Of a stretch of DNA of 64,000 bases, positions 1-6,527 are shown piece after piece. Location of the stretch: contig ONOU01000014.1 of assembly GCA_900319525.1 (NCBI GenBank), forward strand, positions 1 to 64,000, read 5' to 3'. How positions within the stretch are numbered: position 1 is the first letter of the stretch; every line of letters starts with the position of its first letter. A program made the translations under genes and the position numbers. The stretch comes from an uncultured Prevotellaceae bacterium. Its GTDB lineage: Bacteria; Bacteroidota; Bacteroidia; Bacteroidales; Muribaculaceae. The notes under the pieces are model-generated. The model was not told where the DNA came from. It searched no databases and saw only the letters and a program-made list of their open reading frames with translations.

Positions 1-744
1 GTTGCTGTTGGCGTATGGCGTGGTGTTCATCAGCAGCAGGTGGCGGTAGTCGCTCTGCTCCCACAGCGAGAAGTCATAGGCGTAGCCCAGGGCTTCGCAG
101 ATCTTCTTTGTCAGCCACAGCAGGTACGGCTGGAACGAGAGGCCACGGGAGAAGTCCGTGTCCTCATCGTCGTCGGGGTTGACCTTCCACTCGTACTTGC
201 TGGCTGAGGCGTTCCACTTGGCGCAGTTCTGCAGGTTGCCGCTGGAGTTGTTGACCCACGGCAAGGCGGTGTAGTCCTCCGTCCTGCCCCAGAGCTGCGC
301 CGGAGAGGCGTAGGACACTTCTTCCCCGGGTCTAGGTTGGGCCCCGCCGCCGGTAGGCGAATTGTCGGGATAGATGCTGGGCCACTTGCCCAGGTCGAGC
401 TCGTCGATGTAGGTTTCATCGAAGCGGGGGAAGAAGTTCTGGTAGGATCGCTTCTCCAGGAACTGCACCTTGACGGCTTCCTGCGAGATGCCAGTGATGA
501 CGACGGCACCGCGCTTAAAGAAGTTGGTGTCCTGCAGCACCGCATCGAAGAAGATGTCGCCCGTGTCCACGTCCTTTCGGGTAATCATGCCGAAGATGGC
601 GATGTTCTGCGGACAGTCTGCCAGTGGCAGTTCAATCTCCATGCTGTAGTCATCGGCGTCGGTGAAGATGCGGTTCTCCGATACATATTCTATCGAAGAC
701 CCCTTCTTCAGCGCTGCCTGTTTTCCGTTTATCGTCAGTATCAT
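1..744 (-). CDS. Anchor gene Y: hypothetical protein, 3' end beyond window
   Basis: An open frame of 248 codons from the ATG at 744 runs off the left edge without a stop. The protein starts MILTINGKQAALKKGSSIEYVSENRIF and has no signal peptide or membrane segment. I do not recognise the family. Its compact N-terminus with alternating hydrophobic residues and its setting suggest, weakly, a phage-tail-like or mobile-element protein. The first 36 codons and the promoter region are duplicated at about 1308-1480, so this is one of two anchor genes that flank a cassette array. A -7 box (TACCTTTG on the minus strand, 767-774) lies 23 bp upstream of the ATG inside a palindrome. Coding is likely because the frame is long and the duplicated part keeps the frame; function unknown. 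Confidence 0.6.
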   Translation of the reverse strand, partial: MILTINGKQAALKKGSSIEYVSENRIFTDADDYSMEIELPLADCPQNIAIFGMITRKDVDTGDIFFDAVLQDTNFFKRGAVVITGISQEAVKVQFLEKRSYQNFFPRFDETYIDELDLGKWPSIYPDNSPTGGGAQPRPGEEVSYASPAQLWGRTEDYTALPWVNNSSGNLQNCAKWNASASKYEWKVNPDDDEDTDFSRGLSFQPYLLWLTKKICEALGYAYDFSLWEQSDYRHLLLMNTTPYANSN

Positions 745-752
745 AAAAAATA

Positions 753-784
753 GCGGTTGTTTACCACAAAGGTAGAACAACCGC
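753..784 (-). promoter_or_regulatory. Palindrome with promoter -7 box in its loop, possible terminator
   Basis: Arms GCGGTTGTT (753-761) and AACAACCGC (776-784) are perfectly complementary. The loop carries CAAAGGTA, which is TACCTTTG, a Bacteroidetes -7 box, on the minus strand. Read on the minus strand the hairpin is followed by TATTTTTT, so it could also terminate transcription from the upstream cassette. A homologous palindrome at 1430-1462 has compensated base changes in its arms. Confidence 0.6.
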
Positions 785-834
785 GTATGCTGTGAAAAGA
801 CGTGACGAATGGTTTTCTTATTTACTGAATCTTT

Positions 835-1242
835 TCATTGAAAGAATCGAAGTAACCATCCTTCTAAACCATAAGGCTCGACAAAGTATTTATCTACTAA
901 TATACTTGCAACAGCGCCTCCAATCCCAGATAAAAAAACAATTAAAAAAGCGATCACATACAGGGTCAGTTTTGATATATTATCATATTTTTTATTTGAG
1001 ATGAGACTTTGTTTTTGTGGTGCCCTAAAATATGAAAAGAGAAGACAGATTATTAGGTACAGTATAATAGAGACTTTGTTTAGTTTGCAATTGAGTAGAT
1101 CAGCACAAAATCTTACTAAAGGGTAGAACAAAGCCAATCTTATCACCGCCATACACAATATTGACGAGTAATAAGCTTCGGTATCGCTTTCTCCTGACCG
1201 CTTGAATAAAGAACAAAAAAAACGAAATAATTCTCTCATCAT
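835..1242 (-). CDS. Cassette 5: small multi-pass membrane protein, unknown
   Basis: About 135 residues from the double ATG at 1242/1239 (MMRELFRFFCSLF). There are hydrophobic stretches around ALFYPLVRFCADLL, VSIILYLIICLLFSYF and LTLYVIAFLIVFLSGIGGAVASILV, so three or so membrane segments are likely. The frame stays open further upstream, but that part overlaps the promoter, so the ATG pair is preferred. A -7 box (CAAAGGTA on the plus strand, 1267-1274) sits 25 bp upstream. The gene is AT-rich compared with the main chromosome. It is the cassette nearest anchor gene Y. I do not recognise a family; an immunity-type or phage-carried accessory protein is a possibility based only on context. Confidence 0.6.
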   Translation of the reverse strand: MMRELFRFFCSLFKRSGESDTEAYYSSILCMAVIRLALFYPLVRFCADLLNCKLNKVSIILYLIICLLFSYFRAPQKQSLISNKKYDNISKLTLYVIAFLIVFLSGIGGAVASILVDKYFVEPYGLEGWLLRFFQ

Positions 1243-1421
1243 TCTACCTTCATATTGTTTTGATTGCAAAGGTAGCAAAAATCATGCCTAAACACTTCAT
1301 TTTCTCTTAGATTTTCCATGCTGTAGTCGTCGGCATCGGTGAAGATGCGGTTCTCCGATACATACTCTATCGAAGACCCCTTCTTCAGTGCGGCCTGTTT
1401 TCCGTTTATCGTCAGTATCAT
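1239..1421 (-). pseudogene. 5' stub of anchor gene Y fused to 3'-end leader of anchor gene X
   Basis: The ATG at 1421 opens a frame whose first 36 residues (MILTINGKQAALKKGS to DDYSME) equal the start of the complete gene at 744. After that the sequence switches to the AT-rich leader seen downstream of gene X (TCTAAGAGAAAATGAAGTG) and the frame ends after 60 codons. It is a duplicated gene start left behind by recombination rather than an independent gene. Its promoter palindrome at 1430-1462 is intact, so a short peptide might still be made. Confidence 0.75.
1267..1274 (-). promoter_or_regulatory. -7 promoter box of cassette 5
   Basis: CAAAGGTA on plus reads TACCTTTG on minus, matching TAnnTTTG. 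A weak inverted repeat (GCA 1275-1277, TGC 1285-1287) abuts it, in the same position as in the other cassettes. Confidence 0.6.
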
Positions 1422-1429
1422 AAAGAGTA

Positions 1430-1462
1430 GCGGTTGATTTGCCGCAAAGGTAAATCAACCGC
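1430..1462 (-). promoter_or_regulatory. Second copy of promoter palindrome
   Basis: Arms GCGGTTGATTT (1430-1440) and AAATCAACCGC (1452-1462) pair perfectly over 11 bp and enclose the -7 box CAAAGGTA (1445-1452). Compared with the copy at 753-784, the eighth arm base differs on both sides (T/A versus A/T), so pairing is preserved. Confidence 0.6.
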
Positions 1463-1491
1463 GTATACCTCGAAAAGACGACGTTATTTCT

Positions 1492-2223
1492 TTATCTTAT
1501 ATAGTGATATTGCATTAAATCATATCCGTTATATTGATAATAATATGTACTATCAGTACATTTCTGATAAATGACAGATTCAAAGAAACCTTGCTCTCCA
1601 ACATTCCGCTCGAAGATTCTATTATTTTCCATATAGACACTTGCAGAGATATAATCATCTTTTAAGTGATTATAAAAAAGATGCTTTAAATCTTTTACCG
1701 CAGACTGATAGCTATCGTACCCATATATCTGAAATTTTCCAAAAGGATAAATTGATATAGAATCATTAAGATTGTCTCTCACTCCCACAAATGCTTTTGC
1801 TGCATAATTACGACCTTTATCAACTGTTTTATATTCTTTGTTTTCTATCGTTTTTTCCTCAATACAAACAAAAATAAAACACTTTAGGCCATCTTCATTA
1901 TATAATATTGTATCTGTTGACACATTGATGTATTCATTCACAGGGAGAGGCGCTTGTAAAAACTTTTTACTATTATGATAATACACTCCAGCAAAAGGCT
2001 TATAGTAGTAGGCTACATCCATGTTATGAATTACATCCGTGCCATAATTAACCCGAATATATTCGATGTTTCTCATGATGCAATCCGCAACTTGACGCTT
2101 ATCGCGCTCATAGATTTCTGGTGTAATCAATGGGCACTTTGGTTGCTTTATTTGCTTAGGCTTGCAGGAAAAAAGAGACAGCAAAAGAAGAACTATTAGT
2201 GAAACAGACTGCATTCTCATCAT
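1492..2223 (-). CDS. Cassette 4: lipoprotein, unknown
   Basis: 243 residues with an N-terminal hydrophobic stretch ending in the lipobox-like LSLFSCKPK, so a lipoprotein whose mature Cys is about residue 20. Start could be 2223, 2220 or 2214 (MQSVS); all keep the signal. The mature part is charged and rich in Tyr, Asn and Asp with no recognised domain. A -7 box lies at 2248-2255. A copy of the end of gene X (about 2281-2335) sits just upstream and the second Y promoter palindrome just downstream, so the gene is a self-contained cassette. Confidence 0.65.
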   Translation of the reverse strand: MMRMQSVSLIVLLLLSLFSCKPKQIKQPKCPLITPEIYERDKRQVADCIMRNIEYIRVNYGTDVIHNMDVAYYYKPFAGVYYHNSKKFLQAPLPVNEYINVSTDTILYNEDGLKCFIFVCIEEKTIENKEYKTVDKGRNYAAKAFVGVRDNLNDSISIYPFGKFQIYGYDSYQSAVKDLKHLFYNHLKDDYISASVYMENNRIFERNVGEQGFFESVIYQKCTDSTYYYQYNGYDLMQYHYIR

Positions 2224-2247
2224 CAGTAGCTATTAGAGTTTGTACGG

Positions 2248-2269
2248 CAAAAGTAGCGATATTTTCGCT
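2248..2269 (-). promoter_or_regulatory. -7 box and inverted repeat of cassette 4
   Basis: CAAAAGTA (2248-2255) reads TACTTTTG on minus. It is joined to the inverted repeat AGCGA (2255-2259) / TCGCT (2265-2269), the same layout as the other cassette promoters. Confidence 0.55.
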
Positions 2270-2280
2270 TAAACACTTCA

Positions 2281-2335
2281 TTTTCTTTTAGATTTCGGTG
2301 ATTTATTGTTCATGAGGCGCTGGTACTCGCCAGAG
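2281..2335 (-). repeat. Partial copy of the 3' end of gene X
   Basis: The DNA repeats the last ~45 bp of the gene at 4489-4755 (encoding EYQRLMNNKSPKSKRK) plus the AT-rich leader that follows it. Homology stops abruptly upstream at about 2332. Just upstream, 2355-2390 also resembles the flank of the Y promoter palindrome (CAACCGC, then GAAAAGACG). Confidence 0.75.
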
Positions 2336-2420
2336 TTTTATAATTTTGGAAAAGTTGCTCAACCGCTTAAGCCTTGAAAAGACGCGCCGAAAAATTGGAA
2401 TCAACTTTCGATAATCTATG

Positions 2421-2906
2421 TTATTTGATTTTAAGGAACCAAGAAACACCCTTCCATTTTGTATCGTATTCAATTTTGTATTCAAATTCTCTTGGATATG
2501 ACTTTTCTTCAATGATGCTTTTCAGTAAAGAGTCAACAGGTTTAGGGTCATACAATTGCCAAATCATTCTGCAATGGCCATTAGTTGTTTCTCTAGCAAG
2601 GAATAATGCATTAGGATGAACTGGGTCACCAATAATCTGTTTGGAAATACCTTCAAGATACTCTATTACCAATTGGCTTTCATCACTAGTAGGCATCTCA
2701 TTATCAGCCAATTCTTTAAATTCCATCCATAGAGAGCATGTCCACCCAAAAATGTTTTTATGTTTGAATTTCCGAAGAGCAGTATTTAGAACTATAACAG
2801 ATGGTAATCCGTTAAGTGTGCTAGAAGCAATAACGAGATCATCTTTAGGGATAATCAACTTGACATTATTGGCGTCTTTTCTAAAAAAGTCTGTTAAGAA
2901 ACTCAT
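2421..2906 (-). CDS. Cassette 3: DUF695-like protein
   Basis: 161 residues, no signal peptide, so probably cytoplasmic. The order NGLPSVIVLNTAL, then GWTCSLWMEF, then NALFLARETTNGHCRMIWQLY, then FEYKIEYDTKWKG near the C-terminus fits the DUF695 layout (a substrate-free name; function of the family not established). The ATG at 2906 is 33 bp downstream of a -7 box at 2939-2946. Stubs of gene X lie on both sides (2281-2335 and 2974-3030). An immunity or adaptor role would be inference from the cassette context only. Confidence 0.7.
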   Translation of the reverse strand: MSFLTDFFRKDANNVKLIIPKDDLVIASSTLNGLPSVIVLNTALRKFKHKNIFGWTCSLWMEFKELADNEMPTSDESQLVIEYLEGISKQIIGDPVHPNALFLARETTNGHCRMIWQLYDPKPVDSLLKSIIEEKSYPREFEYKIEYDTKWKGVSWFLKIK

Positions 2907-2938
2907 AAATTCCGATTTATCTTTCTGATTATGATGTG

Positions 2939-2961
2939 CAAAGGTAGCAAAATTCTTTGCT
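2939..2961 (-). promoter_or_regulatory. -7 box and inverted repeat of cassette 3
   Basis: CAAAGGTA (2939-2946) reads TACCTTTG on minus. The adjoining inverted repeat is AGCAAA (2946-2951) / TTTGCT (2956-2961), a compensated variant of the AGCGA/TCGCT pair in other cassettes. Confidence 0.6.
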
Positions 2962-2973
2962 AAACACTCATTT

Positions 2974-3030
2974 TCTTTTAGATTTCGGTGATTTATTATT
3001 CATGAGGTGCTGGTACTCGTCCTGCGCCTT
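2974..3030 (-). repeat. Partial copy of the 3' end of gene X
   Basis: Repeats the end of the gene at 4489-4755 (codons for DEYQ.LMNNKSPKSKRK with two base differences) and its stop region. It is too short to be a gene and marks a cassette boundary. Confidence 0.75.
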
Positions 3031-3043
3031 TCATCTAATCATA

Positions 3044-3793
3044 TCAAACAAAATGATGCAAATCAACAATCGATATCAAGGTTTCAGTACCATTCATGCC
3101 AAAAATAATACTATTGATCTTTTGGTCAATCACTTGCAATAACACTACTGAATACCAGAAATCAGAAGCAAAGCTATTATTTTGATCATCGACATAATAC
3201 TTTTTGTACCATATGTCTTCGATTACTTCACAAGACACAATAGCAATATAATTATAACTTAGTTCCTTAGGCAAGTCAATATTTAGCGATGATAAAACTT
3301 CTCTTATTTCTTGACCTTTTTGAAAACCAGCAATGGACAAATCGTAAGAATTAATGTGACCCGCTTGAGGATAGAATAGATTGTTTTCTTTACAGAACTC
3401 TATTGTATCATTATCATTTCTAATAAATGCATAATAAGGTATATCATCATCAAATAGAACTGTGAACTTTCTTCCGTATTTTTTGATTATAGACGTGCTA
3501 TCTATAGGAAATTCCTTAGAATAAAACACATCATCATGAGCAATGAGCACCAAGGTATCACTCATCAAAAAAATAGTTAGAATTTTTTGCGATTGAATCT
3601 TATTTGCGCTAATTGAGTCTCTTGTTTTGGGATAAATGTTATTCCCAACAAAGTAATGATGACTCATAGCCCAACCATATTTAAACGAGTCTAAATCGTC
3701 TCGATTAATTGATGCAACACTTCGATTGCCACATGCATTTACAATTGTCAAAAAGATAAATGCACAAACAAAATAACCAATCTTCTTTTCCAT
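3044..3793 (-). CDS. Cassette 2: lipoprotein, unknown
   Basis: The preferred start is the ATG at 3793 (MEKKIGYFVCAFIFLTIVNACGNRS), which gives a signal peptide with the lipobox VNAC and a 249-residue lipoprotein. The frame is open further upstream to a GTG at 3883, but that would bury the signal. The mature part is acidic and aromatic with no recognised domain. Its -7 box is at 3903-3910, which leaves about a 105-nt leader from the chosen ATG. It follows the cassette-1 gene closely. Confidence 0.6.
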   Translation of the reverse strand: MEKKIGYFVCAFIFLTIVNACGNRSVASINRDDLDSFKYGWAMSHHYFVGNNIYPKTRDSISANKIQSQKILTIFLMSDTLVLIAHDDVFYSKEFPIDSTSIIKKYGRKFTVLFDDDIPYYAFIRNDNDTIEFCKENNLFYPQAGHINSYDLSIAGFQKGQEIREVLSSLNIDLPKELSYNYIAIVSCEVIEDIWYKKYYVDDQNNSFASDFWYSVVLLQVIDQKINSIIFGMNGTETLISIVDLHHFV

Positions 3794-3902
3794 GTTTATT
3801 GCCAGTATTAACAGAGATAGTACGTCGTTGTTTTTGTTAAACAATGCACCAATCCATTTTTTGAATATTTCTTTGAATAACACTTGTACACTTTACTAAA
3901 GG

Positions 3903-3924
3903 CAAAGGTAGCGATTATTTCGCT
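3903..3924 (-). promoter_or_regulatory. -7 box and inverted repeat of cassette 2
   Basis: CAAAGGTA (3903-3910), then AGCGA (3910-3914) / TCGCT (3920-3924). The stop codon of the upstream lipoprotein gene (3915-3917) lies inside this inverted repeat. Confidence 0.6.
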
Positions 3925-4433
3925 TGTAACTTCTTTATAATAACACTTTTAACCAGTTCCCTGTTGTCTTCAAGATAATCTAATATTCCACAAGGGAACT
4001 TGCAATCATCATCAAAAACGTCAAACTGCATTCCTAAATCACGTGCAGGTGCCATATAATCGGACTCATAAAAAAGAATGAAAGCTAAATCTCCTTTTCT
4101 AAGATTTACCTTTTTGGAACAAATATTTTGTGCCAAGTCAGTAGTATCTGAAATACTTTCGGCCACATTCATCAATATTCTACCATCTATTTTTCTATCC
4201 TTGAAGGCTTTGTAATCATCATTCTGTATGAAACAATTATCAAGACAGTTCCAGATGATGTTGAATTGTCCGTATCTGATATTAATCAGTGAGTCATTCA
4301 TAACCATTTCATTATCCGCTTGAGAAATAGCCACATCTTTAACTTCCTTTTGTTCCTTCCCTGAACAAGAAGACAACAAGCAAAAAAATACTAAAGAGAT
4401 AGCTAGGAATTGATGTGATCTGAGATTTTCCAT
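3915..4433 (-). CDS. Cassette 1: lipoprotein, unknown
   Basis: 172 residues. The N-terminus LAISLVFFCLLSSCSGKEQ is a clear lipoprotein signal with Cys at about residue 23. The rest is acidic and contains four further Cys (NCLDNC, NICSK, CKFPC), which could form disulfides outside the cytoplasm. No family recognised. The ATG at 4433 lies 26 bp downstream of the -7 box at 4459-4466. This is the cassette directly behind the intact gene X. Confidence 0.65.
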   Translation of the reverse strand: MENLRSHQFLAISLVFFCLLSSCSGKEQKEVKDVAISQADNEMVMNDSLINIRYGQFNIIWNCLDNCFIQNDDYKAFKDRKIDGRILMNVAESISDTTDLAQNICSKKVNLRKGDLAFILFYESDYMAPARDLGMQFDVFDDDCKFPCGILDYLEDNRELVKSVIIKKLQAK

Positions 4434-4458
4434 AATTCAATATTATTATTGCTAACCG

Positions 4459-4480
4459 CAAAGGTAGCGAAAACTACGCT
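4459..4480 (-). promoter_or_regulatory. -7 box and inverted repeat of cassette 1
   Basis: CAAAGGTA (4459-4466) with AGCG (4466-4469) / CGCT (4477-4480) directly upstream of the -7 box on the minus strand. This is the copy attached to the intact gene X. Confidence 0.6.
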
Positions 4481-4488
4481 TAAACACA

Positions 4489-4755
4489 CTATTTTCTTTT
4501 AGATTTCGGTGATTTATTGTTCATGAGGCGCTGGTACTCGTCCTGCGCCTGCTTGATGCCCTTGTCGCCGGTCACGGTATTGACCGTGACGAAGGGCTCG
4601 TCCAATCGCTCGTTGAGACGGGCGATGATTTCTTTCAAGTCACTTCTATCTTGCTTGATAAACAGCGGCGGATTTTTTTGGGGGGATACAATGTACCCCC
4701 CTTTTGTGGTATAACAGGGGTTTTCGACAATTATTACGGGATGGCGGTCAGTCAT
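4489..4755 (-). CDS. Anchor gene X: small hypothetical protein
   Basis: 88 residues starting MTDRHPVIIVENPCYTTKGGY and ending in the very basic tail NNKSPKSKRK. No signal peptide or membrane helix; the middle (DLKEIIARLNERLDEPF) looks helical. The last ~45-55 bp of this gene occur again at 2281-2335 and 2974-3030, so it is the parent of the stubs in the cassette array. Family not recognised. Higher GC than the cassettes, like gene Y, so X and Y may have been neighbours before cassettes were inserted between them. Confidence 0.55.
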   Translation of the reverse strand: MTDRHPVIIVENPCYTTKGGYIVSPQKNPPLFIKQDRSDLKEIIARLNERLDEPFVTVNTVTGDKGIKQAQDEYQRLMNNKSPKSKRK

Positions 4756-4844
4756 AAATCACAAAATCACAATATTTTAACGTATCATAACGATTCTTAA
4801 AGTACCGTTCGAAAGTCCCAACAGGATCACGCTTCCAAATTTTT

Positions 4845-4882: not shown

Positions 4883-5157
4883 TCTCTTTGTGTCCAATTA
4901 ATTATCCCGGTTTATCATCAAAGAAGAGGATTCACGGCTCAGCGGAAAATTAGCGGGGGTAAGCATGAGGTCGAAAGACCTCGCCAAGGCCAGCGGCCTT
5001 GCTGTGGCCTTCGACCACACCGCCCCCACCTTTTATCGGGTGAGCCGGATTCACCAGGTCAATGTTCAAGCTGTTTAAAAAAGATTTGAGACTTCTTGCC
5101 TTAGGGCTTGTGGCCTAAACGTGAGGTCAGGAAAAGAACGCGATGCCCCTATGAGCT

Positions 5158-5945: not shown

Positions 5946-6527
5946 TCATTCTGCGACTTCTTGTTCTACCAAATCTCTGAGTTCGTCAACATCATCACGA
6001 AAGTCTTCATCAAGAAACCAGTTACCCATCGCCGCACCCAAAATCACACCCAGAACCACTGCGCTATCATTCAAAAGATGTACTGACAGGAAATCTGTTC
6101 CTTTCTTGACTAAAAACCCGCAAATGATCGCAACGGTAATTGGAATCCATTGTCTCAATTTGTGCAGTCTTATTAACTGCTTTACTTCACGATAAAGTTG
6201 TGGAGCAGAACTGGCATTTTTCATTCTCTTGAAATAGCGCCGCATAATCATGACCATGATGCGATCTACAATAAAGCCAGTGACGCCGACGACAACCAAC
6301 CAAGCGTTAAATCCCCAAAGATCATTATTCCGGTAGCTATACACTTCAGCAGCAACAATAACAGCGACCAGAATGGCCAAAACAGCAATGGCAATCCAAC
6401 GGTGCTTCCATAAGGTTGGAAATCCCCTTCTCGTCATTTTCTCGGCCTTGTCGGTGATGCGCTGTAGCAGTTCCTGCAAATGCTGCTCACCGTTCATTGC
6501 CTGACTCATTTCAATCTTTTCATCCAT
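5946..6527 (-). CDS. Membrane protein, unknown
   Basis: 193 residues. A charged, helical N-terminus (about 1-43) is followed by four hydrophobic stretches near WIAIAVLAILVAVIVAAEV, LWGFNAWLVVVGVTGFIV, WIPITVAIICGFLV and DSAVVLGVILGAAMGNWFL, then an acidic C-terminal tail rich in Asp and Glu. This looks like an inner membrane protein with cytoplasmic ends. I do not recognise a family. It stands alone between the beta-barrel gene and the VOC operon. Confidence 0.6.
   Translation of the reverse strand: MDEKIEMSQAMNGEQHLQELLQRITDKAEKMTRRGFPTLWKHRWIAIAVLAILVAVIVAAEVYSYRNNDLWGFNAWLVVVGVTGFIVDRIMVMIMRRYFKRMKNASSAPQLYREVKQLIRLHKLRQWIPITVAIICGFLVKKGTDFLSVHLLNDSAVVLGVILGAAMGNWFLDEDFRDDVDELRDLVEQEVAE

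Follow-up and report, generated by a model that had tools for sequence, protein, structure and literature searches.

The window analysed here is a stretch of 64,000 nucleotides that forms the start of contig C22 (ONOU01000014.1) in the genome of an uncultured Bacteroidales bacterium (assembly GCA_900319525.1; 3.28 Mb in 54 contigs). At its left end, five AT-rich genes stand as single-gene cassettes between two genes, X and Y, and pieces of X and Y recur between them. Open reading frame (ORF) calling confirmed the positions given for all seven genes in an initial annotation made from the sequence; X is related to the end of a phage tape-measure protein (TMP) gene, and Y is the gene that follows it in phages. 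The features are listed below, with lengths of proteins in amino acids (aa) and with 'lipoprotein' and 'membrane' as labels read from the sequence. L, G and C numbers denote loci, genomes and contigs, respectively.

1-744, minus strand: Y, the N-terminal 248 aa of a gene of about 653 aa located after the tape measure; runs off the window edge and continues on contig C23
740-802, minus strand: Y leader, with a -7 box within a hairpin and then a T run (folding z -4.3)
835-1278, minus strand: cassette 5, a 147-aa membrane protein from a family of three (ORF, family clustering)
1257-1327, minus strand: X-type leader joined to the end of a Y-start stub (repeat comparison; leader match 1257-1314)
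1315-1480, minus strand: Y-start stub with promoter hairpin (repeat comparison, folding)
1492-2223, minus strand: cassette 4, a 243-aa lipoprotein, with a copy in the prophage of G070
2244-2335, minus strand: X-end stub and cassette promoter (repeat comparison)
2342-2384, minus strand: remnant of a Y promoter adjoining the X stub (65% over 43 nt), absent from the initial annotation
2421-2906, minus strand: cassette 3, a DUF695 protein of 161 aa, also in G070, G017 and G041
2934-3030, minus strand: X-end stub and cassette promoter (repeat comparison)
3044-3883, minus strand: cassette 2, a 279-aa ORF, probably a lipoprotein from an internal ATG, with no relative among the collected loci
3893-3925, minus strand: short leader with a -7 box and without an X end (33-nt leader-like match)
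3915-4433, minus strand: cassette 1, a 172-aa lipoprotein, with a copy in the prophage of G070
4489-4755, minus strand: X' (X, 88 aa), the last 60 or so TMP codons joined to phage right-end sequence
4766-4836, minus strand: phage right end, found at 10 places in the collected loci including the window, beside arrays or remnants
4822-4837, plus strand: attR, a 16-bp copy of the tRNA-Arg 3' end (other copy at C23:68314-68329)

The end of X is present in 86-nt copies at 4455-4540 and 2934-3019 (90% and 72% identical, respectively, to the reference copy at 2244-2329), and the start of Y with its promoter is repeated at 1315-1439 (94% over 125 nt), fused to an X-type leader; both repeats had been noted correctly at the outset. 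The type of leader/Y-stub fusion seen at 1257-1327 is also present in L103/L157 of G037. A -7 box (TANNTTTG) lies upstream of all five cassette genes, as had been claimed for every cassette, but the X-end leader that was said to accompany it precedes only four, the exception being the 279-aa gene. The G+C content of the five cassette ORFs is 31-34%, and that of Y is 57%. The DUF695-like nature assigned to the third cassette protein holds (PF05117, E 8.4e-7, above cut-off), and this was the one match over the cut-off when Y and the cassettes were searched against Pfam and PHROGs; a PDB sequence search with the DUF695 protein gave no match. Chance or an assembly artefact is an unlikely origin of the repeat layout, because other assemblies contain stubs and fusions like these and three blocks of the window match G070 at 96.8-99.4%.

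A mini-prophage at tRNA-Arg

Over its last 62 residues, X matches the C-terminal end of a TMP encoded by a 1500-aa ORF of contig C50 (PF10145, 2.2e-17; PHROG tape measure, 1.2e-31). The gene order on C50 is TMP, a 150-aa AT-rich ORF and Y; the contig also encodes an amidase, has a weak portal match, and apparently matches a viral contig in IMG/VR. The tape-measure origin of X, the place of Y behind that gene, the mini-prophage with integrase and tRNA att sites described below, and the recurrence of this arrangement throughout the genus were missing from the initial annotation because they are visible only with database tools. Full-length copies of Y, up to 97% identical, are found in other genomes. 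Relatives of Y occur in 61 of the 150 genomes searched (own genome included) and are confined to the window's own genus, one of 60 genera searched; the named records concerned were assembled from metagenomes, for the most part of rumen, and carry the labels Muribaculaceae, Prevotellaceae, Porphyromonadaceae or Bacteroidales. A PDB profile search with Y gave no match. As separate observations, the Y stubs of L013, L172, L181 and L210 are split near model position 86 by a short insertion, and three consecutive co-directional ORFs (409, 319 and 346 aa) inside or beside the C50 prophage (L011:6180-9383) look by eye like tyrosine recombinases.

The start of C22 equals the end of C23 over 64 bp (window 1-64; C23:71291-71354). 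Beyond this overlap, C23 continues with Y for 426 aa, a small ORF, a convergent tyrosine integrase of 412 aa and then tRNA-Arg. The 16 bp of the tRNA-Arg 3' end have exactly two copies in the genome, one in the tRNA and one at window 4822-4837 (control, 0). The window holds one end of a mini-prophage of about 7.8 kb, attL-integrase-Y-five cassettes-X'-attR at tRNA-Arg, in which the join of C22 to C23 rests on the 64-bp overlap and the matching att repeats. The fusion that created X' is repeated in L174 (twice), L162, L170, L161/L101, L165 and contig C18 of the same genome (L018), and its presence in several loci suggests a lineage rather than one chance event. Downstream of Y, a tRNA gene (Arg, Ser, Gly, Pro or Val) is present in all 19 loci with Y that were examined, and in 14 of these the interval from Y to the tRNA holds a convergent relative of the integrase with 59-72% identity. 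No relative of the window integrase was found in the other five (L105, L109, L111, L117 and L132), all with tRNA-Ser; the two of these displayed, L105 and L111, have an ORF of similar size and direction at the integrase position.

Still smaller elements carry the same ends. An element in L174 (7937-9462) has a phage end on either side, with X', a single gene of 179 aa and a Y stub but no integrase, and another right end follows it; L170 (8652-10251) holds an element with X' and a 311-aa gene, and in L175 a left end is joined to a right end. All three have the tRNA-Arg att core (with mismatches in the left copy of L170 and in L175), and no tRNA gene was found on their contigs. L174 and L170 are the only loci with both phage ends around one unit. 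A phage integrase acting in trans could mobilise such mini-elements. The candidates L162 and L180 were withdrawn as att-flanked minimal elements; their end hairpin looks by eye like a host tRNA terminator. The 179-aa cargo gene of L174 (8381-8920) resembles by eye a 193-aa gene to the right of attR (window 5946-6527), a hint of host gene capture.

A slot between the tape-measure gene and Y

Across 83 non-redundant loci that contain X or Y pieces, 142 cargo ORFs were counted, which fall into 88 families. A mechanical rule took every forward-strand ORF of at least 60 aa as cargo, and four families, being X/Y pieces or spurious, were dropped from the function searches and from the counts of intact-type loci. 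The latter, defined by a TMP of at least 900 aa or cut by the contig end and a Y of at least 600 aa, number 26 and are, like all loci of the survey, not phylogenetically independent; L108, L110 and L113, among others, have a full Y yet fall outside this rule. Twenty of the 26 carry forward cargo, five are empty and one has a reverse ORF only. In the empty slots the stop of TMP overlaps the start of Y (ATGA) in three cases and lies within 19 nt of it in two. The slot is likewise empty in L238, a distant viral contig whose Y is 41% identical, where the overlap is 4 nt. The intact-type slots hold 25 cargo families, two of them in more than one slot, and three families are common to these and the remaining 57 loci. 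With 25 families in 26 loci, what stands between X and Y differs from one related genome to another, as had been predicted; the filled and empty slots and the varied families bear out the initial proposal of repeated insertion of interchangeable cargo at an X/Y junction.

The cargo stands apart in base composition (median G+C 38.9%, versus 54.9% for 89 background ORFs) and comes with recurrent leader signals. The -7 box is present in 79 of 94 X leaders, in 70 of them at one spacing, compared with 3.5% in shuffled sequences and none of the five empty slots. Among Y leaders 84 of 91 have the box, which in 64 of the 84 lies between exact inverted arms of at least 8 nt, and the hairpin before Y folds strongly in all five correctly placed leaders (z -4.1 to -6.1). 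Terminators predicted in the window were not in excess of expectation (3 versus 2.7), and one of the three is at the Y leader. Consensus sigma-70 scans are expected to be uninformative for Bacteroidetes promoters, and here the scan gave 20 sites versus 18.0 expected.

Morons of temperate phages are lysogenic-conversion genes with their own promoter, as described in the parts of the literature drawn on here (PMC6469090, PMC6379469). The layout of the TMP-Y slot is the anatomy of a moron: cargo is inserted between genes that are adjacent in related phages, and both remain intact (5/26 empty, 20/26 with cargo), while the -7 box, judged on sequence features, would provide a promoter of its own. 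As at moron loci, the extra gene with its promoter box lies between late genes that touch in relatives, a hairpin precedes the next gene, and the base composition is unlike that of the phage. Unlike moron loci, one junction is used in prophages across the whole genus, several cassettes can accumulate with fragments of the flanking genes in between, and chromosomal remnants keep the slot.

A pattern of cassette exchange between loci

More than one X or Y piece, i.e. extra copies, is held by 32 of the 83 loci. Cassettes 1, 3 and 4 of the window have counterparts in the prophage of G070 (L108) with 99.2, 99.2 and 100% nucleotide identity. G070 is another species, in which the host gene used as yardstick throughout (one gene, 688 codons) is 86.6% identical to that of the window genome; its prophage has a full-length Y, an integrase and tRNA-Gly. 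The order of elements (genes given by protein length) is X-172-279-X-DUF695-X-243-Y/X-147-Y in the window and X-209-Y/X-DUF695-X-172-243-Y in G070. Three blocks are common to both (window 3901-4540, 2247-3029 and 1315-2270), and five of their six edges lie in X/Y stubs, the sixth being just past a gene, in a short leader. The homologous recombination suggested at the outset agrees with these five edges in homologous stubs; the mechanism itself we infer. The DUF695 cassette is also found in G017 (97.2%) and at a chromosomal site in G041 (96.4%), and a trio of cassettes is 93.5-100% identical among G032, G081 and G059, with 87-93% for the host gene.

These identities bear on the view that the array is a product of ordinary decay, i.e. 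a dead prophage with a few morons, in which stubs arose by local duplication and exchange does not continue. Decay would explain the stops and deletions seen in Y stubs and the 57 of 83 loci that are other than intact-type (some of them prophages cut by contig ends). It is nevertheless unlikely in view of cassettes that are 99-100% identical and stand in another order in the prophage of another species, with a full-length Y and an integrase, against 86.6% for the host gene. A single chromosomal site, site A, with common scars and different cargo, also argues against it.

Site A lies between a 688-aa gene and a gene of cobalamin type that is present in 46 of 101 genomes of the genus (the labels 'tilS', 'cobalamin-type' and 'host' follow what we take these genes to be). 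In a sample of 40 site A stretches, which left out the genomes G008, G064 and G088, 28 are empty, eight have X/Y pieces and two are uninformative; the remaining two (L207 of the own genome, and L214) have a longer spacer with no X/Y pieces there. Three further occupied cases are L085, L089 and L092. Among the collected loci, scars were found only at site A, on the left side in 13 records from six genomes and on the right side in 27 records from 12 genomes (own genome counted on both sides, two right-side genomes at the allowed match limit, genomes by our mapping). Because the scar sequences are common and confined to this site, one old insertion seems to be shared by these genomes. By our reading, nine readable cases contain eight different cargo sets, which overlap in a dockerin-type family (three cases) and one lipoprotein family (two cases); in the own genome the scars have survived and the cargo is gone.

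The scars common to 12 genomes would also fit a large ancestral array that was inherited and from which different genes were lost in each lineage, as would a 143-aa gene of G059 and G037 that is 89.8% identical, versus 89.2% for the host gene. In most site A comparisons, however, the cargo is more similar than the host gene: that of G059 and G072 is 93.5-100% identical at the nucleotide level to copies at other loci of G000, G032, G036 and G081, with 85.7-87.6% for the host gene, and the DUF695 cassette of G041 is likewise close to that of the window. We regard such inheritance as very improbable.

Two further chromosomal regions of the window's genome were seen outside this comparison. A gene of DUF5714 type on C12 (L014:8783-9472) has an X-type leader and corresponds, by its start sequence, to slot cargo of the G033 prophage (L105:315-1004), and on C13 (L015, 11600-18400) several ordinary-looking genes have X- or Y-type leaders, perhaps another decayed array. 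Within the window, an intergenic repeat of about 110 nt at 4930-5050 has about 20 whole or partial copies in the genome (85-99% identity) and is apparently unrelated to the array.

The array also recalls two types of gene islands filled by recombinases. A rAID (recombinase-associated interbacterial defence) island is described, in the part of the source considered, as a tyrosine recombinase upstream of at least two co-directional genes of less than 41% G+C, with orphan immunity genes in gut Bacteroidales (PMC12247911); like the window, such arrays have a tyrosine recombinase, short AT-rich co-oriented genes and conserved intergenic sequence. Neither such an island nor an array of integron type, in which site-specific recombination at the intergenic repeats brings in the genes, is more than a most doubtful account of the array. 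The five genes qualify by G+C content, but the recombinase is neither upstream nor co-oriented: it lies on the far side of Y in convergent orientation, a position occupied by its relatives in 14 of 19 prophage loci. The repeats are pieces of phage tail genes, the cargo is mixed, and fixed recombination sites between cassettes, as in integrons, were not found; instead the stub edges vary (15 start positions for 41 X stubs, 14 end positions for 34 Y stubs, some positions recurring).

We consider it likely that the array is an expanded moron slot of a mini-prophage, in which cassettes are traded via X/Y stubs. Temperate phages of this genus of rumen Bacteroidales integrate at tRNA genes with the order TMP-slot-Y-integrase-tRNA. 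The empty slot, with the TMP stop overlapping or nearly touching the Y start, would be the older state; in a filled slot the cargo genes bring a promoter box of their own, and the hairpin at the end of the slot includes the -7 box for Y. In the window, a deletion left attR-X'-five cassettes-Y-integrase-attL at tRNA-Arg. Because stubs of the TMP end and the Y start between cassettes offer homology, cassettes are swapped and reordered, as the pattern shows and presumably by homologous recombination, among phages, mini-elements and those old chromosomal remnants in which only X/Y pieces are left. X/Y stubs thus seem to be the points at which cassettes recombine and pass between phages and remnants in the chromosome. 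The carried genes would probably alter the lysogen, part of the cargo perhaps as immunity or phage exclusion.

Several observations weigh against this reading. Y has no family match at E 0.01 in Pfam and PHROGs, and its structure model (12-sequence alignment, mean pLDDT 42) was poor, and no fold search was based on it. The 64 bp that C23 shares with C22 also form the end of contig C50, which is unexplained, the matching att repeat being on C22 only. The TMP frame of L108 is interrupted near its end in the assembly, which makes the activity of the G070 prophage doubtful. Not all sharing is recent: a family of 135/118 aa (family 17) is 85.4% identical, versus 89.5% for the host gene, the 147-aa gene of the window is 67-69% identical to its relatives, the 243-aa lipoprotein of G007 is 73.8% identical, and the 143-aa gene of G059 and G037 belongs here as well. 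Other rearrangement must also act, since no X stub accompanies cassette 2 and some cassettes adjoin each other without one. Recombination itself was not observed, its mechanism being read from the pattern of repeats, and most genomes are metagenome assemblies that break at X/Y repeats.

More tentatively, the tail-gene stubs may be portable homology arms, which would give an economy of exchange that resembles an integron's but has no integron. The cargo would circulate among three kinds of carrier: live phages; mini-elements of about 1.5 kb that have att ends but no integrase and are stacked at an att core of tRNA-Arg type; and fixed landing pads in the chromosome, kept by the host as a gene bank. 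We think this possible and rather less probable than its opposite. Cis-mobilizable elements show tandem accretion at tRNA genes. The elements in L174 and L170 resemble them in having att ends, no integrase and a stacked arrangement at one att core, and differ in being phage-derived, 1.5-1.6 kb long and with essentially one cargo gene.

Cargo functions and relation to known hotspots

Representatives of 84 cargo families were searched against Pfam, PADLOC and NCBIfam (for Pfam and NCBIfam with the first 25 of 61 and 106 families listed, respectively). Among the matches listed, single members match CdiI_3, SUFU, YafQ, PD-T4-3 or candidate PDC models, and other cargo matches dockerin, redoxin, CrcB, GDSL lipase, DUF5714, peptidase M50 and ATP-grasp RiPP maturase. 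In PADLOC, 19 models were each matched by one of the 84, the strong matches being PD-T4-3 (1.2e-41) and the candidate PDC-M64 (3.3e-72). The immunity or defence function first proposed for the cassettes is supported for only a few cargo genes. The matches are varied, and they agree better with a slot for carried genes in general than with a defence island. Orphan immunity to type VI secretion, typical of rAID islands, could be represented by DUF695 and the lipoproteins in the window, and by one member each of CdiI_3 and SUFU in the whole cargo set. Superinfection exclusion by the cassette lipoproteins is possible. By a crude rule, envelope proteins make up 45 of 88 cargo families versus 38 of 89 background ORFs, a weak enrichment; the difference is larger only against short background ORFs (11/43). 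An ORF inside a slot array (L162:5634-6560) resembles the IS1595-type transposase of the cargo set.

In the part of their paper drawn on here, Rousset et al. 2022 (PMC9122126) describe antiviral hotspots between two conserved genes of P2/P4 phages and propose homologous exchange. The TMP-Y slot, like these small and fast-changing loci, shows high turnover between two conserved phage genes. It is situated between TMP and the next gene, whereas the P2/P4 hotspots lie beside cos (PMC9122126). In further contrast to what is described there, known defence models are a minority of the cargo, stubs record the exchanges and chromosomal copies take part; the cargo is not rich in known antiviral systems, and unrecognised cargo may still be defensive. 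Literature searches, judged by title and mostly open-access, found no paper on the TMP-Y slot or on arrays of tail-gene stubs.

The TMP-Y slot is well supported as a variant of the prophage moron or hotspot, with a pattern of exchange that is directly visible and a mechanism and benefit that we infer. The routes by which hotspot cargo is exchanged between prophages are an open question, for which Rousset et al., in the part cited, propose routes and ask for experiments (PMC9122126). Because exchanges at the TMP-Y slot leave stubs, the events can be read from the sequence and tested. The slot also gives an address at which unknown cargo genes may be found in rumen Bacteroidales.

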